Positions 5,274-23,560 of a DNA stretch of 64,000 nucleotides are shown piece by piece (position 1 is the first letter of the stretch; each line of letters opens with the position of its first letter). Both the position numbers and the translations under genes were made by a program. Location: NCBI RefSeq assembly GCF_900109885.1, contig NZ_FOBS01000012.1, positions 1 to 64,000 of the forward strand, given 5' to 3'. Source of the stretch: Syntrophus gentianae (GTDB lineage: Bacteria; Desulfobacterota; Syntrophia; Syntrophales; Syntrophaceae). The notes beneath the pieces are model-generated. The model made no database searches. It was not told the DNA's origin and saw only the letters and a list, made by a program, of their open reading frames with translations.

Positions 5274-8200
5274 CTAAGCAGCATAGGCAAAGTCCGTATT
5301 GTCCAGCGAAGTCGCTGTTGTGGAGCCGACCGTACAGATCAGGACGGAATCCCCTGCAGTACTGCTCGTGGGGTTGTACCAGATATCACCGGTCGTCGTG
5401 TCGTTGTAAATTCCACTGGACTCTGTGCCGTTCCCTGTGGATCCGGTTCCTTCGACATACGATCCGGCGTTGAGCACCTTGCTTGTAAAAGAAAGGCCCT
5501 TGATTTTGGAATTGATTAAGCCGTCAAGGAAGTCCCTCAATACGATGGTGTCATCCGCATGTGAAAAGCTCTTGATGGTATCGCGGTTGGCTGCACCGGA
5601 TTCTGAGAAAACAAAGAGGTCCAGACCGGTTCCGCCGTTCAGGGTATCGTTGCCGGCGCCGCCGTTCAGTGTGTCATTCCCCCCGTATCCATCAAGGGAA
5701 TCATTGCCGTCGCCTCCGGACAGGAGGTTGGCGTTCGCGTTGCCGCCAATCGAGTTGTTCAGGGAATTGCCGATTCCGGTGGTCGCCGTGCTGCGGAGAT
5801 AAAGGTTCTCCACGTTGGCATCGAGCGTGAAGCTGGCATAGGCGTAAACTCTGTCGGTGCCGCCACCTGCATCCTCCAAAAGGGTGTCGCTTGCGCTGTT
5901 GACGTAATAGGTGTCGTTTCCCGTGCCGCCGCTCAGAGTGTCATTGCCCGTACCGCCGTTGAGATAGTCGTCCCCGCCGTATCCGTAAAGGGAGTCGTTT
6001 CCCGCGTAGCCGTAAAGGTCGTTGACGCTGCCGGTGCCGTAGAGCGTGTTGCCAAGGCCGTTTCCGAAACCATTGGCCGCTGTGCTGTAAAGGCGCAGAA
6101 TCTCGACGTTGTCCGTCAGCGTGTAGCTGGTGATATAGGAACGGACCGTATCGGTCCCTTCGCCTGCTGACTCGACAACAGAATCGGCCGTGCTGTCGAC
6201 GTAATAGGTGTCGCTGCTCGCGCCGCCGTACATCGTGTCGTTGCCTGTGCCGCCGTTCAAGGTATCGCTTCCCTTATACCCGTAAAGGGTGTCGTTTCCC
6301 TCGTATCCGCGCAGCGAGTTGCTGAGGTCGCTGCCGAAGATCCGGTTGGCAAGGGCATTGCCATAGCCGTTCGGGGCCGTGCCGAACAAGTAGAGTTTCT
6401 CGATGGAATCAGGCAGGGTGTAGCTGATATAGGCGTTGACGGTGTCGGTGCCGGATCCGAAAGACTCGGAAACCACGTCTCCGGTGCTGTCCACGACATA
6501 GGTGTCGTTTCCCGCGAATCCGTACATGGTGTCGTCCCCGGTCATGCCGTTGAGGAAGTCGGCGCCTTCATACCCGTACAAGTTATCGTTTCCGGCATAC
6601 CCGTAAAGGGTGTTGTCGCCTTCGGTTCCGGAGACGATGTTATTCAGCGCGTTTCCGTACCCGGTGACTGCCGCGCCGTACATGTAGAGGTTTTCGACGT
6701 TTCCAGGCAGGGCGTAATTGTTGATATAGGCATTGACCCGGTCGGTACCGGAGTCAGCAGCCTCGTTAATGGAGTCGTCGGAACTGTCGACGTAATACAG
6801 ATCGTCTCCCGTGCCTCCCGACAGAGAGTCGCTTCCCTCGCCGCCGTCCAAGGTGTCGTTCCCCCATTTGCCATTCAGCGTATCATTTCCGGCATTGCCG
6901 TTGATCGTATCGTCTCCCGTGCCTCCATTAAAGGAATCATTTCCGTCACCGCCGGACAAAGTATCGTTTCCGGCATCGCCATAGAACACATCGTCGCCGG
7001 ATGATCCACTGAGAGTATCGTTTCCGTCGCCGCCGTAAAGTTTGTCGGTTCCACTTCCTCCGCTCAGGGTATCGTTTTCGTCTCCACCGTACAGGGTATC
7101 GTTTCCGGAGCTGCCGATCAGCGTGTCCTCACCGTCACCGCCGGACAGGATGTCGTTCCCGGAATAGCCGTACAGGTTGTCGCTACCCGCGCCGCCCGTC
7201 AGGACATTAACGGCGCTGTTGCCTATAATGGTGTCGTCACCGGAACCGCCGACCGCTTGTTCGATCACCGTTCCGACGGCAATCGTCATGTTGCCTTCCT
7301 GACCGCCAATGTCCGAGATCGATCCGACGGTTGACGTGCCTGACGCCACGGCGAGATTGATCCTCTGGTCGGCCGAATAGCCGGAGAAGTCCACCGCGTC
7401 GACGCCGCCGTCATCAATAATACAGAAGGCATTCTTGTCGGCATAGAGCTGAAGGTCTGCCATCACCTCGCTTTTGGATGAGGAAATAGTGGTGTTGAAC
7501 CCGTAGATCGTATCGCCGGTAAAGGCCGATGACCCGTAATAGTCGCGCAGGGTCTCGATGTCCGCGGCCATGACGGTGATGAGGTAATTATGATCGGCGT
7601 CAATCATCGTGTTCCCGGTCTGGCTGAAATACGACATGATGGTCTGCTGCCAGCTGTCGTTCAAAAAAATGTTGTTGTTTGAGGTCGCCTGTGAAGAATC
7701 GGTGATGTAGGTGGCGGTTAAGTTGTAGGGACCGGGATGCCCCAGTCCAAGAGCATGCAGGGTTTCATGGATGATGGTCTGGTAGGTATAGTCATTTGCA
7801 TTCGACGTACCTCCCTCCCAGTTCGCGTTCACGTTTACCCATGAATAGTTGATATAGTGATGATTGTCGGTGCCGTTACCCAGGGTGTTGAATAGCTTTG
7901 AGTTGCTCTTGGCGCCGCTGGCGTTGTCCTTGTAGAAAATGTCGACATCGGAGCCGGTGTCTGTAGTCTTCACGAAATTGATGCCCAGAATCTCGCCCAG
8001 GTAGTCGAGCGCATCATCAACCAGCGCTCGGCGCGGGGCAGTCAGGCCGTCCGCGTCCGTGCCCGCGCCCGAGATGTCGTCGAATCCCGAGGTGTTGTAG
8101 TAAAGCGTGCCGTTGTTTCCCGAGATGGCCGAGTCTCCCATGTTGAAAGAGCGGTAATGCGTATCTGTCGAGTCCCAGTACCCCTGCTTGAGATAACCGG

Positions 8201-8438
8201 CGATCCCGTTGATGGTGTAGTACGGCAGGGGGGAAAACTCTTCGACGGCCGCCTCGCCTGCCTCAGCATTGCCGATCCCGGGATTGAGTCCATAAAGGGT
8301 GTTGCCGTCAGTGCCGTAAAGGATATTGTTGACAAAATATCCATTTGGGTAATCATCATCTTCGTAACCGTGGATAGAGTCGGCTTCATCCGTTCCGGTT
8401 AGCGTATTTGTAAAAGTCTCTCCCTTGATAAGTGCCAT
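5274..8438 (-). CDS. RTX protein with serralysin-like M10 metalloprotease domain
   Basis: The protein has 1054 residues. [11 protein letters not shown] at 224-234 is the HExxHxxGxxH zinc site of metzincins, and IMSYF at 267-271 supplies the Met-turn, as in peptidase M10 serralysins. Residues of about 390-1000 are Gly-Asp-rich calcium-binding RTX nonapeptides (GGxGxDxLx), interrupted by repeated modules with YYVDS and VENLYL blocks. There is no N-terminal signal peptide. As in other RTX proteins, export by a type I system using the C-terminus is expected, but no such transporter is in the window. The start has GGAGGGA upstream. The C-terminal 120 residues closely match those of the next RTX gene. 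Confidence 0.9.
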
Positions 8439-8474
8439 GACCTTATCCCTCCAATTCTTTTACATTACTCGATC

Positions 8475-8518
8475 ATCTGAAATACTTGAAGTTATTGGCC
8501 TGCTCCCCTGGGATATTA
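8475..8518 (-). repeat. Upstream block shared by both RTX genes (copy 1)
   Basis: About 44 bases upstream of this RTX gene match 10197-10240, the same position upstream of the second RTX gene; the best-preserved stretch is AAATACTTGAAGTTAT. A shared promoter or regulator site left by duplication is the simplest reading. Confidence 0.6.
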
Positions 8519-8544
8519 CGGAGTCCACATTCTTCAGTCGAAAA

Positions 8545-8658
8545 GTGACTCATAGTGAAGATAGCAAACTTATCGGCATGGTGCACCCCATTTCTTGCGG
8601 ATTGGATGTTCGAAAGGAGAGCATATCGACCTGTGGTTGTGATCGGGAAAAACTGTGA
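8545..8658 (+). pseudogene. Remnant of the 5' end of an IS110-family transposase
   Basis: The frame from GTG 8545 reads SEDSKLIG, then HPISCGLDVRKESIS. This is a diverged copy of the transposase start at 1-164, and the two are also clearly similar at DNA level. It ends in a stop at 8658 after about 37 codons, with no further transposase sequence. It lies between the two RTX genes on the opposite strand and is not functional. Confidence 0.8.
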
Positions 8659-8729: not shown

Positions 8730-10160
8730 TCAACTGTGATAGATGAAATCCGTATTATCCAGTGAAGTAACCGTTGCGGTTCCAACTGTACATATTAATG
8801 CGGAATCTCCAGCCGTATCGCTTGTAGGATTGTAATAGATTTTCCCTGTTGCTGTGTCGTTGTAAATGCCGCTGATATCGGTGATTCCATTGCCTGTTTT
8901 TCCGGAACCTTCGATATAACTATCTGTGTTCAGGACGTTATTGGCGTCGAAAGAAAGACCCCTAATGGAGTTACTGACCAAACCATCCAGAATGTCCTTA
9001 AGCACGATTGTGTCGTCCGTGTGTGAAAAGTCGGTGAGCTTGTCACTATTGGTTGCCCCGGATTGTGCGAAAACGAAATAGTCTTGATCGGTGCCACCGA
9101 TCAGAGTATCATTGCCCGCGCCGCCAATTAGGATGTCATTTCCATTACTGCCCCTCAGAGTGTCATTTCCGGCAAGCCCATATTCGGTGTTGTCCAGTGT
9201 GTTTCCTCGAATTATGTTGTTAAGCGAATTTCCGGTTCCCGATAACGCAAAAATTGAAAGATTTTCCACATTGGTAGGTAGGGAATAGTTGTCAACCATC
9301 GCATAAACCGTGTCTGTTCCGGCACTTACAGCCTCAGAAACAACATCATCCAAACTATCGACAAAATAGGTATCATTACCCGCACCACCCTTCATAGTGT
9401 CGTCTCCGGCACCTCCCACTAGGGTATCATTTCCAGTGTTACCCAGCATGATGTCATCGCCGGCAAGTCCATGAAAGATGTTTGCGTTGCTGTTTCCAAC
9501 GAGGATGTTATTGAACGCATTTCCAGTCCCGCTCGTTGCGGTACCTTTCAAGTAGAGGTATTCGATCTCGAAACCGTCGAGGAGAGTATAGCTGACATTG
9601 GACATAATTTTATCTGTGCCACCACCCGAACTCTCTACGACAATATCCGCTTCACTATCAACGACGTAGGTGTCGTCTCCTGACATGCCGATCATGGTGT
9701 CATTACCGGCGCCACCGTCCAGGGTATCGTTGCCGGCGAAACCAGCAAGCCAGTTGTCGTTATCATTGCCGATAAGCTTATTGTTAAGTTCGTTGCCCCT
9801 TCCAAGGAGTGCCGAGCCGTCAAGGGTCAAGTCCTCTACATTAGCCCCCAGAGAATATTCGATAGATGCGTACACATGATCCGTACCGGCAGACAGAGCC
9901 TCGGAAACAACGTCGTCCGTACTATCGACGTAATAGGTATCATCGCCTGTTCCACCATACATCTTATCGTTACCGGTACCGCCATCCAAGGTATCGTTGC
10001 CTGTTCCACCATACATCTTATCGTTGCCGGTACCGCCGTAAAGATCATCATTGCCACCATAACCGTAAAGGATGTCATTGCTGCCATATCCGTAAATGGT
10101 GTCATCATCAGCAGTTCCACGAAGCGTATTTGGTGATTTGTCCCCTTTGATGAGGCTCAT
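8730..10160 (-). CDS. RTX calcium-binding protein without protease domain
   Basis: The protein has 476 residues, nearly all RTX nonapeptide repeats (GGTGND and GGAGND types) with three intervening modules containing YYVDS or YVVDS and VENL or VEDL blocks. The last 120 residues (an FVF...SGA start, DDTIVL, then ICTVG near the end) are a close copy of the C-terminus of the M10-type RTX protein next door. That end probably holds the type I secretion signal. No catalytic domain is visible; calcium-dependent surface or matrix roles are plausible. The ribosome site GGGAGGAAT precedes the start. Confidence 0.85.
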   Translation of the reverse strand: MSLIKGDKSPNTLRGTADDDTIYGYGSNDILYGYGGNDDLYGGTGNDKMYGGTGNDTLDGGTGNDKMYGGTGDDTYYVDSTDDVVSEALSAGTDHVYASIEYSLGANVEDLTLDGSALLGRGNELNNKLIGNDNDNWLAGFAGNDTLDGGAGNDTMIGMSGDDTYVVDSEADIVVESSGGGTDKIMSNVSYTLLDGFEIEYLYLKGTATSGTGNAFNNILVGNSNANIFHGLAGDDIMLGNTGNDTLVGGAGDDTMKGGAGNDTYFVDSLDDVVSEAVSAGTDTVYAMVDNYSLPTNVENLSIFALSGTGNSLNNIIRGNTLDNTEYGLAGNDTLRGSNGNDILIGGAGNDTLIGGTDQDYFVFAQSGATNSDKLTDFSHTDDTIVLKDILDGLVSNSIRGLSFDANNVLNTDSYIEGSGKTGNGITDISGIYNDTATGKIYYNPTSDTAGDSALICTVGTATVTSLDNTDFIYHS

Positions 10161-10717: not shown

Positions 10718-10900
10718 ATGAAACGTCTTAATATTGTGTGTATTGTCTTTCTCCTCATCAGTATTTTGTCTCCTAACGCAGTCATTGCTGGCCAATGGGC
10801 AAAGGCCTATGGCGGCACTGGAAACGAAAATGGTAACATTTGGCCGACAAGTGAAGTTTATTATCTTGAAGGGGAACATGGACTGGGCATGTTTTATTGA
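10718..10900 (+). pseudogene. 5' fragment of a secreted protein gene
   Basis: The frame has 60 codons: a clear signal peptide (MKRLN, hydrophobic core, cleavage after VIA) and then WAKAYGGTGNENG. That start resembles large secreted repeat proteins that begin W-A-K-x-Y-G-G, but here the frame stops where IS110 remnant sequence begins. It is best read as a gene cut by the insertion; a genuine small secreted peptide is possible. Confidence 0.45.
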
Positions 10901-11063
10901 AGAGATTGCTGCTCATGGTCGAAATTTATAACCGCCTGAAAGATAAAGGCAAGAATGGAAAAGTTATTGTCTGCGCAATTATGCGCAGACTTGTTCATGT
11001 TATTTTCGGTGTTCTGAGATCCGGGAAAAGTATGATCCAAACTTTAAGCCAAGTTTGGCTTGA
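10896..11063 (+). pseudogene. Remnant of the 3' end of an IS110-family transposase
   Basis: One frame reads EIYNRLKDKGKNGKVI followed by AIMRRLVHVIFGVL, the usual C-terminal helix of IS110-family transposases. After codons for SGK the reading shifts by one base to YDPNFKPSLA and the stop at 11061-11063, so there is also a frameshift. Only the last 55 or so codons remain. It has the same orientation as the 5' remnant at 8545. Confidence 0.7.
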
Positions 11064-11092
11064 AAAGAACGGTATCTACGGGCCAAGAATTC

Positions 11093-11902
11093 CTATTCTT
11101 TTTTGAAGGGTTTTTTTACAATAACCTTAATGCCACCGATTGTCTCCGTAACTGCCTTCTCGATCGCTGAGCCCGCCTCACCACCAATTACCTCAGCTGC
11201 CTCAATGGCGCCCATTGCAGCAGCAGAAGCAGCTTTCTCCGCAGATATTCCGATTTCCTTCGCCACTTCTATCGTCCCCAATACGGCGCTTTTAGCAATG
11301 GTAACGACGTCTCCGCCAACTTCCGCTGCCCCAAGAACCAGTCCCTTTGAGGTGTCTTTTATCACCGTTGTCAGTTGGCCACTGGCCTCGGCTACGCCAC
11401 CGACAGCGCCCTTAACAGCATTTTTGGCCGCCAGGCTCGTATCTCCCCCCACTTCGGAAATAGCGCGGATTATACCCCGTGCCGCTTCTGATGCAGCGTC
11501 TTCCGCCGTTACAGTAATATCTCTTGTACCGGTTATGGCACCAATTATTGTACTTTTGGCCACGGATTCAATGTCCCCACCAATCTCTGCAGTTCCTTTG
11601 AGCGCTCCATGAGCCGTGTCGCGAATAACATCGAGGGTCACGGAACCGATCTCATGAACTCCTTTGAGGACACCGACGATTGAATTCTTGGCGACAGTTG
11701 TCAAATCCGCACCAATCTCTCCTGCTGCTTTAATTGCCCCGACAATAATGGGGCCGACAGCAGCTTCAATGTCTTTAGCACCCTCTAAGGCCTTTACTGT
11801 TGTGGTGCTCACAATGTCCACAATTCCCACGGCTATATCCCGTGTACCTTTTAAAACCCCAATGACACCATTTCTAATTGTCTCGCCGACATTCTTTTCC
11901 AT
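11093..11902 (-). CDS. Protein made of eleven 22-residue Ala/Gly/Val-rich repeats
   Basis: The protein has 269 residues starting at ATG 11902, with AGGAGG eight bases upstream; an in-frame GTG at 11911 is less likely. Residues 15-252 are eleven consecutive repeats of 22 residues, one of which (37-54) has lost four. The pattern is G-h-h-x-G-x-x-E-I-G-x-D-h-x-x-V-A-K-x-x-h-x, where h is hydrophobic. The repeats have no proline and few aromatics; the tail is basic (KKPFKKE). A 22-residue period equals two 11-residue turns of an amphipathic helix, as in lipid-associated proteins. There is no signal peptide. The family is not recognised; a lipid, granule or membrane coat is a hypothesis. Confidence 0.85.
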   Translation of the reverse strand: MEKNVGETIRNGVIGVLKGTRDIAVGIVDIVSTTTVKALEGAKDIEAAVGPIIVGAIKAAGEIGADLTTVAKNSIVGVLKGVHEIGSVTLDVIRDTAHGALKGTAEIGGDIESVAKSTIIGAITGTRDITVTAEDAASEAARGIIRAISEVGGDTSLAAKNAVKGAVGGVAEASGQLTTVIKDTSKGLVLGAAEVGGDVVTIAKSAVLGTIEVAKEIGISAEKAASAAAMGAIEAAEVIGGEAGSAIEKAVTETIGGIKVIVKKPFKKE

Positions 11903-12010
11903 TGATGCCACCTCCTGATTTTTGTCTGTTAATGCGTTGTTGTTATTCTTTCACACTATCGGCTAACCATCCGTATCCTTTCTTCTTTCTACATTAAATA
12001 ATCTAGCTTG

Positions 12011-12400
12011 CTAGTATATTATTGTCAACAAATTCTTGATCCTTGTCAAATTTCTCGGGGGGGGGGTGTTTTCAAGTTCTGCAATGACTTGAGCACCCAA
12101 CAGCAGGATTACGGCAACCACCTCTATGCAGAGCAAGGCTATCACAGTAGTAGTAATGGAACCATAAATAACATTTACCATAGAAACGGCCTTGTAATAC
12201 CACACCAGCACCCGGCGGCTGATCTCCCATAACACCGCTGCGGTTAACCCACCGATGAGTGCATGACGGAATATGACGTGCCTAACGGGCATGACCAGGT
12301 AGGAGGAAATAGATGTCAGAAATTTGCATATTTTATCTACAAGGCAACAATAATGGTGGATGATATAATTTGAGGATTTGCGAAATTCTGAACATAACAT
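12011..12400 (-). pseudogene. C-terminal fragment of a YihY/BrkB-family membrane protein
   Basis: The segment from RHALIGGLTAAVLWE to LLGAQVIAELE matches the last two or three membrane helices of YihY/BrkB-type (formerly RNase BN) inner-membrane proteins, including the W-Y-x-x-x-V-x-x-x-N-x-I-Y-G-S pattern. The N-terminal two thirds are absent; upstream codons do not look like the family, and the next gene begins 27 bases further on. A run of ten G on the plus strand (12057-12066) lies at the end of the matching part and may mark a frameshift. It is probably not functional. Confidence 0.6.
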
Positions 12401-14635: not shown

Positions 14636-14881
14636 GGTGGTTAAAAAAAGATAAGCCAAAAATTGTGAAATGCCGCAGGTCAGTTAACTAAAATTTTCTG
14701 TATCTGCTGCTCTTTGAAAATCAGGATAAGTTTTTGATTCTCTTTATGTATCAACAGTTTGGAGTTTTCCATTTCATATAAATCCTCAAGAAAAGGCTTG
14801 AAAGTGAAATTAAACAGCAAGAGCATTCCCGGGTTTCTGTCCCACTTGTGGGCGAGTCTCAGTGTAAACCGTTTGACACAA

Positions 14882-17800
14882 ATGTACGCCTCTTTCGAGC
14901 CGCCCCTTAGATCTGAGTTGCTCAGCGCCTCCCAGATGGAGCAACACGGCAAGACCCTTGCTGCAGCACACACATTGAGCACAGACCATCCTCCCGAACA
15001 ACTTCTGGCGCGGCTGGGTGAGAATGAAAGCATGCTCCTTGGCGTTCGTGAACTCCTGTCAAAGGCCGTTAAAGAAAACCGGAGGATTACACCGGCCGGG
15101 GAATGGCTTCTCGACAACTTCTACCTTATCGAAGAACAGATTCGAACAGCTAAAAGTCACCTGCCGAAGGGATACAGCAAGGGACTGCCCCGCCTGAACA
15201 AGGGTCCGTCAAGAGGTCTCCCCCGTGTGTACGACATTGCCCTGGAGACGATCTCCCACGGCGACGGCAGGGTGGATACTGAGAGTCTCAGCAGTTTCGT
15301 AACCGCCTATCAGACCGTCACCGTGCTCATGCTGGGTGAATTATGGGCCATCCCCATCATGCTGCGCCTGGCTCTGATCGAGAATCTCCGGCGCGTTGCA
15401 ACGCGGATTGCCGCCGACAGAATCGGGCGGAATCGTGCCGATTACTGGGCGGACAAGCTTACGGAGACCGCCGAGCGGAACCCGAAGGATTTAATCCTGG
15501 TCATTGCCGACATGGCGCGCTCGAAGCCGCCCATGGTCAGTTCCTTTGTTGCAGAGCTTACACGCCGTCTGCAGGGTCAGGGGCCCGCTCTCGCATTGCC
15601 CCTGACCTGGATTGAGCAGCAGCTCTCCGAGTCGAGTCTGACGATTGAACAGTTGGTACAGTCAGAGAACCAGCAACAGGCGGCGGATCAGCTTTCCATC
15701 AGCAACAGCATCGGCAGCCTCCGTTTCCTGGGGGCCATGGATTGGCGCAAGTTCGTCGAGACCATGAGCATTGTCGAACAGACCCTCCGCGAGGATCCTG
15801 CCGACGTGTATGACAGGATGGATTTCGCCACCCGCGATTCGTACCGTCATGTGGTGGAGAACATTGCGAAGGGCAGCCGATTATCCGAACCCGAGGTGGC
15901 ACGCGCTGCGATCCGCCTTGCCGGGGAAGGCAAAAACAGGGTAGACGGCGACGATCGGACGAATCATGTCGGCTTCTACCTCATCGACGAAGGGTTGACT
16001 CAGCTCGAAGGGCATGCCGGGGTGCGCCTATCTTTTCCTGAGTCCCTTCAGAAGGTCATTCACCGCTCTCCTTTGTTCTTCTATCTAGGCACGATCGGTG
16101 TGCTTACGGCGATCTTCACCGGGTGTCTGCTTGCCGAGGCCCATTCCACCGGGTTACGCGGCCCCTGGATGTGGATCATCGGCGCAATCTCGCTTCTCTG
16201 TGTAAGCCAGTTGGCGATAGCCCTGGTAAACTGGCTTACGACGCGCCTTGTGGCGCCCCAGCCCCTGCCCCGCATGGACTTCTCCAAAGGAATCCCTCCG
16301 GAATCGACTGCCCTGGTCGTGGTTCCGACGATGATTACAGGTACAGAAAGCATCGAGCATCTAATGGAGGCGCTGGAGGTCAGGTTCCTCGCCAATAGAG
16401 ACGAAAACCTCCGCTTTGTCCTGCTCACCGATTTTCGGGACGCCGGCGAGGAAATCCTGCCCGATGATGGGCCGCTCCTGTTGCTGGCCCGGCAGAGAAT
16501 CGAAGAGCTGAACGAAAAATACAGAACTTCAAAAAACGATACCTTTTTCCTTTTCCACCGTCCACGCCGCTTCAATCCCCAGGATCAGATCTGGATGGGT
16601 TACGAACGTAAGCGAGGAAAGCTGGCGGAACTGAATTCTTTTCTCCGGGGCGGTTCAAGAGCCTGCTTTTCGCTCATCGTCGGCAATACGGAAGGATTGG
16701 AGAAGGTTAGATACATCATTACTCTGGACACGGATACGCAACTCCCGCGTGACGCGGCATGGCAGCTTGTGGGAGCCATGGCCCACCCGCTGAACCGTCC
16801 GCAATACGATGAAAAAAGACAACGCATCTGTGCCGGGTACGGGATCCTTCAGCCACGGGTGGCAGTGAGTCTGCCCGGCACGAACCGGTCACGGTATGCC
16901 CGCATGTGGGCAAGCGATGCAGGTATCGATCCCTACACCCGTGTTGTCTCTGATGTGTACCAGGACCTCTTCGGGGAAGGTTCCTTTATCGGTAAGGGCA
17001 TCTATGAGGTGGATGCCTTCGAGCGGGCCCTCAGGGGACGTTTTCCTGAGAACCGGATTTTAAGCCACGATCTCATCGAAGGGTGTTATGCGCGGGCAGG
17101 TCTTCTGAGCGATGTGCAGCTCTACGAGGAATACCCCTCTCGCTACAGCGCAGACGTGAACCGCAGGCATCGCTGGATTCGTGGGGACTGGCAGCTTTTT
17201 CGCTGGATGCTGCCCGGCGTCCCCGGCCCGGATGCACGTTTTCAGAAGAATCCCCTCTCGATGCTCGCCCGCTGGAAGATGTTCGACAACCTCCGGCGCA
17301 GTCTCCTGCCTTTGGCGTTGACCCTTCTGCTTCTCCTGGGCTGGACGGTTTTACCTTCTCCCTGGTTCTGGACCCTGTCGGTGATGGGTATTCTCCTGAT
17401 CCCGTCCTTGATTGTCTCTCTGCTGGATCTTTTTCAGAAGCCGGGCGATGTCCTTCCCAGTCAGCACATGCTCGCCACTTTGCGGGGGAGCGGCATGAGC
17501 CTTGGCCAGACGACATTTACGCTCCTCTGTCTGCCCTATGAGGCATTTTTCAGTATGGACGCTGTGTTGCGCACTCTCTGGCGCCTGCTGGTTGCAAAAA
17601 AGCGTCTTCTCGAATGGAACCCTTCAGGAGACGCCGACCGCACAAGCCGGAAAGGCCTGACCGGCGCCTGCCGGACCATGTGGATCGCCCCGGTTGTTGC
17701 TGTCATCACGACGCTCTGTCTTGCGCTTTTGAGGCCGGGGGCGTTGATTTACGCCCTGCCTGTGCTGCTCCTCTGGTTTATCTCCCCCGGAGTAGCCTGG

Positions 17801-20800
17801 TGGATCAGTGAGCCCCTTGGCCGCCGGGAAGCAAGTCTCAGTTCCGACCAGATCAACTTTCTGAGAAAGATTTCCCGAAAGACGTGGGGGTTCTTCGAAA
17901 CCTTCGTCGGTCCGGAGGATCATTGGCTTCCTCCCGATAACTACCAGGAACATCACCTTGCCAAGGTTGCCCATCGTACGTCGCCGACCAACATGGGGCT
18001 TGCGCTTCTTGCCAATTTATCCGCCTGGGATTTCGGTTACATCTCTGCAGGGCAACTTATCGAGCGCACAGCCAAGGCACTCCGGACGATGGCAACCATG
18101 GAGCGCCACAAAGGACACTTTTACAACTGGTATGACACAGAGTCACTGAAACCTCTGCTGCCGAGATATATTTCAACGGTGGACAGCGGAAATCTTGCCG
18201 CCCATCTGTTGACCTTGCGGGCAGGCCTCACGGCACTCCCTGATGAGAAAATATTACAATCCAAGGTATTTGCCGGTCTTCTCGATACGGCTCGAATTCT
18301 TCTGGACGTCGCCGGGGATACCGTTCCACCCCGGTTCTCTCAAGTGCGGGAGACGTTGGAGTCTCTTTGCGCCGCCGGGCCGGATACGCTTGCGGCAGCA
18401 CGAGAGGCTCTTATCGGGATTGCCTCGTCGGCCCGGGAAGGAGTTCATGGCCTTGACGCCGCCCCTGAGAGCCAGGCTGCGGAGTGGGCGCGGACCTTTG
18501 CAGGTGAATGCCGGGCCGCCCTCGCTGAGCTGGAATTTCTGGCGCCGTGGATCGTAGGGCCTCTCCCCGCCGAGGTGCTCGGTACTTTCCCTGATCTCGG
18601 CGAGATTCCGACGCTGCGCAAATTGTCCCATCTTGACGAAGAGTTACTGCCGGCAATGGAGGAACGACACACCGGGACGCCGGAGGAGCGGAAGCAGCTT
18701 GACGAGCTTCGTGGGGCGGTCACGGAAGCAAGCATCCGGGCCAGGGCGAGAATCGCGGTTATCGAAGACCTTGCCTCGCAATCCGGCGAACTTGCCCGGA
18801 TCGATTATGACTTCCTCTATGACGAGACTCGCCATCTGTTGGCTATTGGCTATAACATCAGCGAAAACCGGCAGGACGCAAGTTACTATGATTTACTGGC
18901 TTCGGAAGCGAGGCTCTCCAGCTTTGTCGCCATTGCCCAGGGGAAATTACCGCAGGAGAGCTGGTTTGCCCTGGGGCGGCTCCTTACGACCGCCGCCGGA
19001 GAACCGATTCTCCTTTCCTGGAGCGGCTCCATGTTCGAATACCTTATGCCTCTCCTCATCATGCCCACCTATGAGCAGACGCTGCTCGACGAGACCTATA
19101 AAGCGGTTGTGGCCAGGCAGATCGAGTATGGGAAAAAGCGGGGCGTACCCTGGGGGATTTCGGAATCGGGGCATAACACGATCGACGGTCACCTCAATTA
19201 TCAGTATGGTCCCTTCGGCGTGCCCGGCCTGGGGCTTAAACGCGGGTTGGCCGGAGATCTGGTTGTTGCCCCCTATGCCTCGGCGCTGGCGCTCATGGTG
19301 GCGCCTGAAGAGGCCTGCCTCAATCTCGTAGAACTTGCCGCTTCGGGACTTGAGGGGAAGTATGGCTTTTATGAAGCCATTGACTACACCCCAACGCATT
19401 TGCCCCGTGGACAAACGAGTGCAGTGGTTCGGTCCTTCATGGCTCATCATCAGGGCATGAGTCTCCTCTCTCTGGCCTCTCTGCTCCTCAACCGCCCCAT
19501 GCAGAAGCGATTCGAGTCAGAGCCATCGTTTCAGGCCATTATGCTTTTACTTCAGGAGCGGGTGCCAAAGGCCACAGCCTTCTACTCCCACACGACCGAG
19601 CTTGCCGAGGTGCAGACAGCCTTGCAGGACGCAACAGAGATGCCGATCCGCGTCTACAAGAGCCCCGACACCCCCATACCGGAAGTGCAGTTGTTGTCCA
19701 ACGGCAGATATCACGTGATGATCACAAACGCGGGCGGCGGTTACAGCCGCTGGAAAGACCTGGACGTGACACGGTGGCGGGAAGACAGCACCTGCGATAA
19801 TTGGGGGGCATTCTGTTATATCCGTGACCTCGCAACGGGCGCTTTCTGGTCAACGGCATACCAACCCACCCTCAAGGCCTATCAGCAGTACGAAGCGATC
19901 TTCTCGGAAGGACGGGCGGAGTTCCGCCGCCGGGATCAGGACTTCGAAACCCATACGGAAATTGCGGTTTCCCCTGAGGATGACATCGAGCTGCGCCGGA
20001 TTACCATCACGAACCGGGCACGGGCACCTAGAACGATCGAGTTAACGAGTTATGCGGAAGTTGTTCTTGCACCGCCTGCTCAGGACGCACTGCACCCGGC
20101 CTTCAGCAATCTCTTTGTCCAGACCGAGATCATCCGCGGGCAGAAGGCAATACTCTGCACGCGCCGGCCCCGCTCCCTGGAGGAACAGTCCCCGTGGATG
20201 TTTCATCTCATGGCCGTACACGGGGCCGAGACAGGGGAAGTTTCCTATGAGACCGACCGGATGCGGTTTATCGGCCGCGGGAACACCGTTGCCGATCCGG
20301 AAGCGATGAGAGGCTCTTCGGGACTATCGGGCAGTGAGGGCTCCGTGCTCGATCCGATTGTCGCGATCCGGCATTCCATCACCCTGGATCCGGAAAAAGC
20401 GGCAACCATCATTATCGTCACCGGTATTGCCGAAACAAGGAATGCCTGCCTGGCCCTTGTCGGAAAATACCAGGACCGGCATCTCGCCGATCGTGTCTTC
20501 GATCTGGCGTGGACCCACAGCCAGGTCTTGCTGCGGCAGATCAATGCCACGGAAGCCGATGCACAGCTTTATGGACGTCTTGCTGCTTCCGTCCTGTACG
20601 CGAATCCCTCGCTCAGGGCCGGTCCGGAGGACCTCCTCAAAAACCGCCGTGGCCAATCCGGCCTCTGGGGCTACTCGGTTTCCGGTGATCTTCCCATCGT
20701 GTTGCTGCAGATCGAAGATCAGGCCAACATCAACCTGGTGCGACAACTCGTTCAGGCCCACGCATACTGGCGTCTCAAGGGACTGGCGGTGGACCTGGTG

Positions 20801-23560
20801 ATCTGGAACGAAGATCACGCCGGTTACCGGCAACTTCTTCACGAACAGATCATGGGGCTCATCGCCGCAGGGACGGAAGTCAACGTGACCGATCGACCCG
20901 GTGGCATTTTCTTAAGACCTTCCGACCAGATATCGAAAGACGACCGCGTTCTTTTCCAGGCGGTTGCCCGCGTCATCATCACTGACCGCAGGGGAAAGCT
21001 TACGGACCAGTTCCGGAACCGGCGCTTTACGGAAGGAATGTTGCCGGCCCCTCTGAAAATACGAACCTCACGGGGCGATTACCCGGCAATCGCGGCAAAG
21101 CCTCGTCAGGACCTCATGTTTGGGAACGGACTCGGAGGGTTCACTCCTGATGGTCGGGAGTATGTTATCTCGACGGCCCGCGGGCAGGTGACACCGGCGC
21201 CGTGGGTGAATGTCCTGGCTAATCCGCTTTTCGGAACCGTTGTCTCAGAGAACGGTCTTGCCTACACCTGGAGCGAAAACGCCCACGAGTTTCGCCTCAC
21301 CCCCTGGCACAACGATCCTGTCAGCGATTCGAGCGGAGAAGCCTTTTATATTCGGGATGAAGAGCGCGGCCACTTCTGGTCCCCCATGCCGCTGCCCAGC
21401 CGCGGAGCCACGCCCTATGTCACCCGCCATGGATTCGGCTACAGCGTCTTTGAGCACACGGAGCGTGGTATCAGCACAGAGGTGTGGGTATACGTGGCCC
21501 TGGACGCTGCCGTCAAGTTTACGGTGCTGAAGGTGCGCAACCTCTCAGACCGGTCACGGCGACTTTCAGCCACCGGATACGTGGAGTGGGTGCTGGGTGA
21601 TTTGAGATCCAAATCAGCTATGCACGTCATTACGGAGATCAACCCGACCAGCGGCGCCCTCTTTGCGCGGAACCCTTACAGCACTGAATTCGGCAATCGA
21701 ACGGCGTTTTTCAACGTGGATGATGTAACCCGGACGATGAGCGGCGACCGGATGGAATTTCTCGGGCGTAACGGAACGCTCGCTAATCCCGCCGCCATGA
21801 AGCGGTCACTGCTCTCCGGCAGGGTCGGCAGCGCCCTGGATCCATGCGGCGCCATCCAGGTGGCCTTTGAGCTGGCAGCAGGGGAAGAGCGCGAGATCGT
21901 CTTCACCCTGGGCGCCGGACAGGAGGCCGATGACGCCTGCAACCTGGCACGACGCTTCCAGGGATCGGTCGCGGCCCGTGAGGCCCTTGAAGCCATTTGG
22001 CAGTACTGGAACCACGCCCTCGGCGCCGTTCAGGTGGAGACACCTGATCCGTCCGTCAACATCCTGGCCAACGGCTGGCTCTTATACCAGACCCTGGCCT
22101 GCCGCCTCTGGGGACGGAGCGGTTACTACCAGTCCGGAGGCGCCTTTGGCTTCCGCGACCAGTTGCAGGACGTAATGGCCCTCATTCATGCCGAGCCACG
22201 CCTGGTGCGGGAGCACCTTCTCCTCAGTGCGAGCCGTCAGTTTGTAGAGGGTGATGTTCAGCACTGGTGGCACCCACCCTCAGGCCGGGGCGTACGCACC
22301 CACTGCTCGGACGATTTCCTCTGGCTTCCCTGGGCGACGTGCCACTACGTTCTGACCACGGGGGATTCGGGGATCCTGGATGAACCCGTCCACTTTCTCA
22401 AGGGACGCCCGGTCAACGTCGATGAGGACTCCTATTACGATCTACCCGGCAGATCCGAAGAAAAGACGAGTCTCTACAATCACTGTGTACGAGCGATCAC
22501 GAGGAACCTCAAGTTTGGCGAGCATGGCCTGCCGCTTATCGGTTCCGGCGACTGGAACGACGGCATGAACATGGTGGGTAAAGACGGCAAGGGTGAAAGT
22601 GTCTGGCTTGCATTCTTCATGTACGAGGTACTTATGCGGTTCACCGGGATTGCACGCCTGCATGGGGATCTGCCCTTCGCCGAACGTTGTGAGAGAGAAG
22701 CAGGCAAGCTGAGCAGAAACATCGAGGAAAATGCCTGGGATGGTGAGTGGTACCTCCGGGCTTTCTTCGACGACGGAACGCCCCTCGGTTCAGCGGGCAA
22801 TCCCGAATGCAGGATCGATTCCATTGCACAAAGCTGGTCGGTCCTGTCCGGGGCAGGGAGCACCACACGCTCACACATGGCCATGGATGCAGTGGATAAG
22901 CACCTCGTGCGCAGGGACTCCTCGTTGATTCAGCTTCTCGAACCGCCCTTCGACAAGTCTTCTCTAAATCCCGGTTATATCAAGGGGTATGTTCCCGGCG
23001 TCCGGGAAAACGGCGGGCAATACACGCATGGGGCCATCTGGGCCGCCATGGCCTTCGCTGCCCTGGGTGACGACAGACGGGCGTGGGAGCTCCTTGCCAT
23101 GATCAACCCGATAAATCATGGGAAATCCACCGAAGGGATTGAAACTTACAAAGTGGAGCCCTACGTTGTCGCGGCTGACGTATATGCCGTCCCGCCCCAC
23201 ACAGGTCGCGGTGGATGGACGTGGTACACGGGGGCAGCCGGCTGGATGTACCGGCTGATCATGGAATACCTCCTGGGTCTGAGACTTGACATAGACAGAC
23301 TTCAAGTCGTCCCCTGTCTCCCGGCCCATTGGGAGGGCTTCACGGTGCACTACCGGTACAGGGAGACCATTTACCATATCAAGGTCGTGCAGAGACACAC
23401 GGGCGAAGATGAGGGGAGCGTCACCGTTGACGGGGTCGTACAACGGGAGCTGACGATTCCCCTTGAAGACGATCACCGGGAACACTTCGCAGAAGTGATC
23501 ATGGCGTCAATTGGGCCGTCTTCCAATTCCTCCTTGGTGAATTCCCGTTTTACCAGGTGA
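14882..23560 (+). CDS. ndvB: Cyclic beta-1,2-glucan synthase, NdvB-type (GT84 and GH94)
   Basis: The inner-membrane enzyme of about 2892 residues would build periplasmic or exported cyclic beta-1,2-glucan from UDP-glucose. Family marks in order: an N-terminal soluble region; two membrane helices (about 395-455); a family 84 glycosyltransferase domain with DTD at 616-618 and RRHRW at 761-765; further membrane helices at about 805-850 and 930-975; a glycoamylase-like domain around 1400-1560; carbohydrate-binding domains; and a GH94 phosphorylase domain with GDWNDG at 2556-2561 carrying the catalytic Asp. Length fits the family. The start is uncertain: ATG 14882 begins the conserved part, but in-frame TTG 14759 and GTG codons lie upstream and none has a strong ribosome site. 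It stands alone, without an adjacent exporter gene. Confidence 0.93.
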   Translation: MYASFEPPLRSELLSASQMEQHGKTLAAAHTLSTDHPPEQLLARLGENESMLLGVRELLSKAVKENRRITPAGEWLLDNFYLIEEQIRTAKSHLPKGYSKGLPRLNKGPSRGLPRVYDIALETISHGDGRVDTESLSSFVTAYQTVTVLMLGELWAIPIMLRLALIENLRRVATRIAADRIGRNRADYWADKLTETAERNPKDLILVIADMARSKPPMVSSFVAELTRRLQGQGPALALPLTWIEQQLSESSLTIEQLVQSENQQQAADQLSISNSIGSLRFLGAMDWRKFVETMSIVEQTLREDPADVYDRMDFATRDSYRHVVENIAKGSRLSEPEVARAAIRLAGEGKNRVDGDDRTNHVGFYLIDEGLTQLEGHAGVRLSFPESLQKVIHRSPLFFYLGTIGVLTAIFTGCLLAEAHSTGLRGPWMWIIGAISLLCVSQLAIALVNWLTTRLVAPQPLPRMDFSKGIPPESTALVVVPTMITGTESIEHLMEALEVRFLANRDENLRFVLLTDFRDAGEEILPDDGPLLLLARQRIEELNEKYRTSKNDTFFLFHRPRRFNPQDQIWMGYERKRGKLAELNSFLRGGSRACFSLIVGNTEGLEKVRYIITLDTDTQLPRDAAWQLVGAMAHPLNRPQYDEKRQRICAGYGILQPRVAVSLPGTNRSRYARMWASDAGIDPYTRVVSDVYQDLFGEGSFIGKGIYEVDAFERALRGRFPENRILSHDLIEGCYARAGLLSDVQLYEEYPSRYSADVNRRHRWIRGDWQLFRWMLPGVPGPDARFQKNPLSMLARWKMFDNLRRSLLPLALTLLLLLGWTVLPSPWFWTLSVMGILLIPSLIVSLLDLFQKPGDVLPSQHMLATLRGSGMSLGQTTFTLLCLPYEAFFSMDAVLRTLWRLLVAKKRLLEWNPSGDADRTSRKGLTGACRTMWIAPVVAVITTLCLALLRPGALIYALPVLLLWFISPGVAWWISEPLGRREASLSSDQINFLRKISRKTWGFFETFVGPEDHWLPPDNYQEHHLAKVAHRTSPTNMGLALLANLSAWDFGYISAGQLIERTAKALRTMATMERHKGHFYNWYDTESLKPLLPRYISTVDSGNLAAHLLTLRAGLTALPDEKILQSKVFAGLLDTARILLDVAGDTVPPRFSQVRETLESLCAAGPDTLAAAREALIGIASSAREGVHGLDAAPESQAAEWARTFAGECRAALAELEFLAPWIVGPLPAEVLGTFPDLGEIPTLRKLSHLDEELLPAMEERHTGTPEERKQLDELRGAVTEASIRARARIAVIEDLASQSGELARIDYDFLYDETRHLLAIGYNISENRQDASYYDLLASEARLSSFVAIAQGKLPQESWFALGRLLTTAAGEPILLSWSGSMFEYLMPLLIMPTYEQTLLDETYKAVVARQIEYGKKRGVPWGISESGHNTIDGHLNYQYGPFGVPGLGLKRGLAGDLVVAPYASALALMVAPEEACLNLVELAASGLEGKYGFYEAIDYTPTHLPRGQTSAVVRSFMAHHQGMSLLSLASLLLNRPMQKRFESEPSFQAIMLLLQERVPKATAFYSHTTELAEVQTALQDATEMPIRVYKSPDTPIPEVQLLSNGRYHVMITNAGGGYSRWKDLDVTRWREDSTCDNWGAFCYIRDLATGAFWSTAYQPTLKAYQQYEAIFSEGRAEFRRRDQDFETHTEIAVSPEDDIELRRITITNRARAPRTIELTSYAEVVLAPPAQDALHPAFSNLFVQTEIIRGQKAILCTRRPRSLEEQSPWMFHLMAVHGAETGEVSYETDRMRFIGRGNTVADPEAMRGSSGLSGSEGSVLDPIVAIRHSITLDPEKAATIIIVTGIAETRNACLALVGKYQDRHLADRVFDLAWTHSQVLLRQINATEADAQLYGRLAASVLYANPSLRAGPEDLLKNRRGQSGLWGYSVSGDLPIVLLQIEDQANINLVRQLVQAHAYWRLKGLAVDLVIWNEDHAGYRQLLHEQIMGLIAAGTEVNVTDRPGGIFLRPSDQISKDDRVLFQAVARVIITDRRGKLTDQFRNRRFTEGMLPAPLKIRTSRGDYPAIAAKPRQDLMFGNGLGGFTPDGREYVISTARGQVTPAPWVNVLANPLFGTVVSENGLAYTWSENAHEFRLTPWHNDPVSDSSGEAFYIRDEERGHFWSPMPLPSRGATPYVTRHGFGYSVFEHTERGISTEVWVYVALDAAVKFTVLKVRNLSDRSRRLSATGYVEWVLGDLRSKSAMHVITEINPTSGALFARNPYSTEFGNRTAFFNVDDVTRTMSGDRMEFLGRNGTLANPAAMKRSLLSGRVGSALDPCGAIQVAFELAAGEEREIVFTLGAGQEADDACNLARRFQGSVAAREALEAIWQYWNHALGAVQVETPDPSVNILANGWLLYQTLACRLWGRSGYYQSGGAFGFRDQLQDVMALIHAEPRLVREHLLLSASRQFVEGDVQHWWHPPSGRGVRTHCSDDFLWLPWATCHYVLTTGDSGILDEPVHFLKGRPVNVDEDSYYDLPGRSEEKTSLYNHCVRAITRNLKFGEHGLPLIGSGDWNDGMNMVGKDGKGESVWLAFFMYEVLMRFTGIARLHGDLPFAERCEREAGKLSRNIEENAWDGEWYLRAFFDDGTPLGSAGNPECRIDSIAQSWSVLSGAGSTTRSHMAMDAVDKHLVRRDSSLIQLLEPPFDKSSLNPGYIKGYVPGVRENGGQYTHGAIWAAMAFAALGDDRRAWELLAMINPINHGKSTEGIETYKVEPYVVAADVYAVPPHTGRGGWTWYTGAAGWMYRLIMEYLLGLRLDIDRLQVVPCLPAHWEGFTVHYRYRETIYHIKVVQRHTGEDEGSVTVDGVVQRELTIPLEDDHREHFAEVIMASIGPSSNSSLVNSRFTR

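Follow-up and report, generated by a model that had tools for sequence, protein, structure and literature searches.

A 22-residue helical-repeat protein of Syntrophus gentianae as a candidate membrane-surface scaffold from an undescribed bacterial family

What might a bacterium do with a protein in which an amphipathic 22-residue unit recurs eleven times? The gene that raises this question lies in a 64,000-nucleotide stretch of the Syntrophus gentianae genome (contig NZ_FOBS01000012.1, positions 1 to 64,000), referred to here as the window. Its features are as follows.

11093–11902, minus strand: repeat-protein gene, one open frame with ATG at 11902 and a stop codon ending at 11093, 269 aa
11120–11845, minus strand: repeat array of eleven 22-residue units, residues 20–261 (motif scan plus register extension)
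11910–11916, minus strand: ribosome-binding site AGGAGGT, ending 7 nt before the ATG (read from the sequence)
12000–12049, minus strand: two overlapping sigma-70-like promoter matches, TTGACA-17-GACAAT and TTGACA-17-TAGATT (consensus match only)
10969–10990, minus strand, fitting the plus strand too: terminator-like hairpin of 9 pairs, 6 of them G-C (consensus match only)

The gene appears to be transcribed on its own, because the closest upstream frame on the same strand (window 12011–12400) encodes just the C-terminal part of a BrkB/YihY membrane protein (PF03631 positions 174–257) and is apparently a remnant. Both promoter-like sites fall 100–150 bp before the start codon, although such matches are weak evidence here, the region having four where chance alone would give 2.6; the hairpin lies about 100 bp past the stop codon. 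An Rfam search of 10–15 kb of the window returned nothing. A run of about ten G on the plus strand (12058–12068) also lies upstream of the gene. Directly 3′ of it, at 10718–11106 on the plus strand, are an early-stopping short ORF of signal-peptide-like character and a second ORF that by eye resembles the C-terminus of an IS110-type transposase; both are likely remnants, since a Pfam search of the two found no match. Further away are two adjoining RTX calcium-binding-repeat proteins on the minus strand (5274–8438 and 8730–10160), the first of which is serralysin-like, with a Peptidase_M10_C domain and a weak matrixin match, and a 2933-aa cyclic-glucan-synthase-like protein with GH94 domains on the plus strand (14759–23560).

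That the window protein is genuine and subject to purifying selection follows from its 77% amino acid identity to an orthologue from another family of the same order (genome G006) and a dN/dS of about 0.10 (NG86) or 0.23 (YN00). The first-pass annotation, which was made from the letters alone, had assigned it to no known family, and this stands: no Pfam or NCBIfam model exceeded its cut-off, a PDB sequence search gave nothing beyond a match to YrbA (E 0.25) attributable to chance, and a search of a viral fold library gave nothing below E 0.001.

The register of eleven units proposed in that annotation was recovered over residues 20–261, with units 2–11 (starts at 42, 64 ... 240) at exact 22-residue spacing by motif scan and unit 1 placed by register extension. 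Identity at lag 22 is 0.275, against 0.100 ± 0.018 in 2000 shuffles with a maximum of 0.162. The repeats had been called exact and free of proline; they are in fact degenerate, adjacent units sharing about 27% identity, and the protein contains two prolines (P50 and P265). An N-terminal signal sequence is indeed absent on inspection. The supposed 2 × 11 substructure survives in part, disappearing as residue identity (0.124 at lag 11 against 0.100 ± 0.019) but persisting weakly as hydrophobicity, with a half-repeat correlation of 0.68 (permutation p = 0.012). Across the family the consensus unit is approximately GGDVVxVAKxVVKGAIEAAxEV, Gly-x-Asp-like helix caps mark most unit boundaries, and spacing is 22 residues in 486 of 512 gaps (82 proteins). 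The repeat positions are strongly conserved, unlike the drift of low-complexity sequence. Window-type and operon-type proteins, two branches that we describe below, differ by a whole unit within the array and, judging from these sequences, the whole 22-residue unit is what is gained and lost.

A single-sequence search of 60 relatives returned only the G006 orthologue and a paralogue in the window's own genome (G000), whereas a three-row profile detected the family in 31 of 395 genomes of the phylum. When named genomes were scanned, 96 relatives emerged, of which 80 were kept. These come mostly from Thermodesulfobacteriota (Desulfobacterota) and Nitrospirota, with others in Methylomirabilota and Gammaproteobacteria; the ammonia oxidisers Nitrosospira and Nitrosovibrio are among the carriers, and Myxococcota were added by the tree. 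Searches of viral contigs and of plasmids found no relatives. The two branches appear to share ancestry: the window protein matches its paralogue at E 3.6e-13 in a single-sequence comparison, and a profile built from operon-type proteins only finds it at E 7e-19, both scores being inflated by the shared repeats. By these comparisons, the window protein is a member of an undescribed and unnamed bacterial helix-repeat family.

The main branch offers a clue to function. The paralogue (G000:C8:28197-29072) sits in a full operon encoding, in order, a DUF5132 protein, an HMA_2 protein, the repeat protein and a 1029-aa P-type ATPase with an N-terminal HMA_2 domain. This complete order was found for 57 of 87 non-redundant members with flanks on both sides (17 partial, 13 none); counted separately, DUF5132 lies upstream of the repeat gene in 78 of 93 cases and the ATPase downstream in 70 of 97. 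Across the 395 genomes, 31 carry the repeat family, 30 carry DUF5132 and 23 carry both (hypergeometric p = 1.3e-24, uncorrected for phylogeny). At least seven sampled genomes (DUF5132 loci L067–L073) have the operon but no repeat gene, and the repeat protein is therefore an optional part and not essential to the pump. As for the ATPase, 82 of 83 sequences carry the residues of the P2A (Ca2+/Mn2+-type) signature, namely the glutamate of PEGLP in M4, N/E of M5 and N/D of M6, and the best NCBIfam models are calcium-pump types, which score below cut-off; on its sequence the enzyme is P2A-like and of calcium type, and calcium or manganese may be the ion that it transports. The CxxC motif was found in none of the 83 ATPases (first 110 aa) and in none of 67 stand-alone HMA_2 proteins, which makes conventional metal binding by the operon's HMA_2 domains unlikely. 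The HMA_2 protein has transmembrane segments by eye, as does the small DUF5132 protein, in which a transmembrane segment is followed by a Glu/Ala-rich stretch, so that all partners in the operon are membrane proteins. The operon of the main branch thus points to the membrane and to an ion-pumping P-type ATPase. In two further loci (L128 6342-8627; L147 around 6998-8633) the repeat gene and DUF5132 are accompanied by a conserved membrane protein of 183–185 aa, to which no known family could be assigned, in place of HMA_2 and the ATPase.

The window protein itself belongs to a separate branch. Window-type members were found in G000, G006, G392, G068 and G140, the frame in G140 being broken, and the four of these five that entered the tree form one clade with support of 100/97. 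Neither the window gene nor any of its four orthologues lies in the operon context of the main branch. A DUF5132 match and an operon-type paralogue are both absent from four of the five genomes, and the function of this branch therefore cannot depend on the ATPase operon. In G000 and G006 the very large cyclic-glucan-synthase-like gene lies near the repeat gene; elsewhere the neighbours are a B12-type radical SAM gene, an ABM-like gene and often FtsH (names assigned partly by eye).

Could the repeats bind lipid? Their amphipathic character was confirmed by a family-profile moment of 0.373 at 98.2 degrees, which is 6 turns per 22 residues (column-permutation p = 0.0004). Global coherence of the hydrophobic moment does not speak for a single long helix, since a 22-residue repeat that was exact would always be coherent at that angle. 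The hydrophobic residues of the helix span about 165 degrees, with Lys along one edge and Asp/Glu along the other. The mean hydrophobic moment (0.288), hydrophobic fraction (0.46), charged fraction (0.22) and absence of aromatics come close to what has been published for the helix of alpha-synuclein (0.30, 0.47, 0.24 and 0.02, respectively; PMC5889406 Table 1); for perilipin-4 the moment is 0.257 (PMC5889406). Perilipin-4 displays similarly one-sided charges, which have been proposed to permit helix–helix contacts on the droplet (PMC8064757). Family profiles give a lead in the same direction and nothing firmer: the commonest weak Pfam matches among 74 members are Senescence (25, best E 2.4e-6) and Phasin_2 (12, best E 0.001), mostly under the Pfam cut-offs, with a single Synuclein match (E 0.013). 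The Senescence (PF06911) matches inspected singly lie below the curated cut-off of 24.6 bits, one of 13 reversed controls also matches (E 0.015), and the window protein gives no match up to E 10.

In the AlphaFold2 model of the window protein each unit forms one helix, 12 in all (pLDDT 84.4, pTM 0.85), from an alignment of only three sequences; the same kind of fold is predicted for an operon-type protein from 74 sequences (pLDDT 84.0, pTM 0.76). The predicted fold is a globular alpha-solenoid of short helices, one per repeat. The closest solved structures to both models are designed helical-repeat proteins, 8cws (Z 22.8, 3.0 Å over 265 residues) and DHR4 (5cwb; Z 16.7 and 18.1 to the repeat-protein models). 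For helical repeats a Z below about 13 means little, and the values obtained exceed this, yet they speak to arrangement only; 8cws and DHR4 are artificial and imply neither kinship nor shared function. The two outcomes that the first-pass annotation had named as telling against its view did not occur, in that no characterised globular family was matched and the predicted fold is helical. The long, continuous helices of the apolipoprotein type that it had envisaged are nonetheless replaced in the models by one packed helix per repeat. The lipid-surface role that it had suggested remains plausible on physico-chemical grounds; lipid binding is still compatible with that fold, because AlphaFold models no membrane.

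Taking these observations together, we favour, at a probability of roughly 0.45, a reading in which the repeat protein is a cytosolic scaffold on the membrane surface, acting for the P-type ATPase in the main branch. Each 22-residue unit would form one amphipathic helix of about 17 residues closed by a Gly-Gly-Asp-like cap, and the proteins would be cytosolic and peripheral, packed in solution as an alpha-solenoid. The weak hydrophobic face of V/A/T/G, flanked by its Lys and Asp/Glu edges, could then bind the inner face of the membrane, where the proteins might line up side by side. In the main branch such a scaffold would serve the DUF5132 protein, the HMA_2 membrane protein and the HMA-fused P2A-type ATPase; the same broad role would fall to the window protein in the absence of the operon. 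Against this reading stand the structure prediction, in which the helices pack against one another at fair confidence, as would suit a soluble protein, the operons that lack a repeat gene, the position of the window-type genes outside that operon, and the sub-threshold scores of most Senescence and Phasin matches. The main rival, which we hold to be somewhat unlikely, is a soluble alpha-solenoid that binds other proteins, perhaps helping a membrane partner as its adaptor or chaperone, and makes no contact with lipid, the hydrophobic stripe being the solenoid core. It draws on the models of both branches, on their resemblance to designed helical repeats and on the caps at most unit boundaries. 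However, a core so weak (Ala/Val/Thr/Gly), the lack of aromatics and the asymmetry of the Lys and acidic edges would be unusual in a soluble solenoid and are typical of lipid-surface helices, which AlphaFold, working without a membrane, may fold on each other.

The remaining alternatives fare less well than a membrane scaffold. A stress or desiccation protectant of the LEA type, a helix-forming shield for membranes or proteins without specific partners, would suit the composition (rich in Ala, Gly, Thr, Lys and Glu), the Senescence-like matches and the presence by eye of FtsH, slipin and a DUF883-like protein near window-type genes in some genomes; it is improbable in view of the lack of any LEA family match for the window protein even at E 10, the strong conservation of positions and the tight link of the main branch to its operon. 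A coat for storage granules (phasin-like, on polyhydroxyalkanoate) or for neutral-lipid droplets, of which the granule version had been floated in the first-pass annotation, is highly improbable. The Phasin_2 matches favour it, as does a remote solo relative (L046) that adjoins a Phasin-family gene, but no Phasin model scored over cut-off, neither the window genome nor three of its four window-type relatives yielded a PHA synthase (PhaC_N), which disfavours the PHA version, and the neighbouring genes are unrelated to granules. A wax-ester/DGAT (WS/DGAT) search, which gave no match even in the control genomes, bears on neither side. The operon branch might instead build a ferrosome-like, metal-storing vesicle coated by the repeat protein. 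The fez operon of ferrosomes reportedly combines small membrane proteins with a P-type ATPase, a logic that the present operon resembles. This, too, is very unlikely: the ATPase of the paralogue operon combines PEGLP with Cation_ATPase N and C domains and is P2A-like, unlike a P1B6-type FezB, no DUF4405-like (FezC) protein is present among the four genes, and the window-type gene occurs without the four-gene set.

How does a membrane scaffold of this kind compare with known systems? Among the closest are the PacL1/CtpC metal-efflux platforms, or effluxosomes, of Mycobacterium tuberculosis, in which a P-type ATPase operon likewise includes a small protein with one transmembrane segment bearing a Gly motif and then a Glu/Ala-rich part (PMC9374683, PMC13043812). 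DUF5132, in the operon branch, shares this architecture by eye. The small operon proteins match only DUF5132 over cut-off, however, and not DUF1490 or DUF6110, the ATPase is P2A-like and not P1B, and the described PacL operons lack a 22-residue-repeat protein. The likeness to effluxosomes and ferrosomes concerns a possible mode of action, and membership fails on features such as DUF1490 and a P1B ATPase. Perilipin-4 and alpha-synuclein resemble the family in a repeat length that is a multiple of 11, a nearly identical moment, composition and charge asymmetry; they differ in that the units here are 22 residues long with a Gly-Gly-Asp break, lag-11 identity is near chance, a folded solenoid is predicted and the window protein matches neither family in Pfam, so that the resemblance is one of properties and not of demonstrated homology. 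The exchangeable apolipoproteins (A-I/A-IV/E, PF01442) share the 22-residue amphipathic unit, but their helices are punctuated by Pro, whereas the units here end in Gly-x-Asp and almost lack aromatics, and the window protein gives no PF01442 match up to E 10. The Senescence domain, found in spartin and plant ERD7, belongs to a family that binds lipid droplets, and the likeness to it is confined to the weakly matching members noted above.

The repeat proteins have no curated family, although in several phyla their genes usually stand third in an operon around a calcium-type P-type ATPase; cultured ammonia oxidisers are among the carriers. If they are membrane scaffolds, bacteria would have evolved an analogue of synuclein and perilipin coats, and the clustering of ion pumps in bacterial membranes would become directly testable. 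A wider proposal, which we regard as rather doubtful, is that they form a widespread membrane-coat family with synuclein/perilipin-like 22-residue repeats that, in Desulfobacterota, Nitrospirota and nitrifying Pseudomonadota, organises P2A-type ATPases into platforms in the membrane or vesicles inside the cell, free-standing members such as the window protein coating other membranes.

Several relatives depart from the usual arrangements. In a Syntrophobacteraceae genome (L137 7944-9032, plus strand) the reading frame of a family member extends into a regulator domain of the ROS/MUCR zinc-finger type (E 2.7e-24), so that a DNA-binding domain may have been fused to the repeat protein. Two loci (L056 and L057) hold two tandem repeat-protein genes per operon, the first strongly diverged. 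Finally, short solo members at L042 2988-4056, L043 8470-10052 and L044 8560-10127 adjoin a small gene whose product is, by eye, a lipoprotein-like coiled coil, which constitutes a separate conserved pairing.
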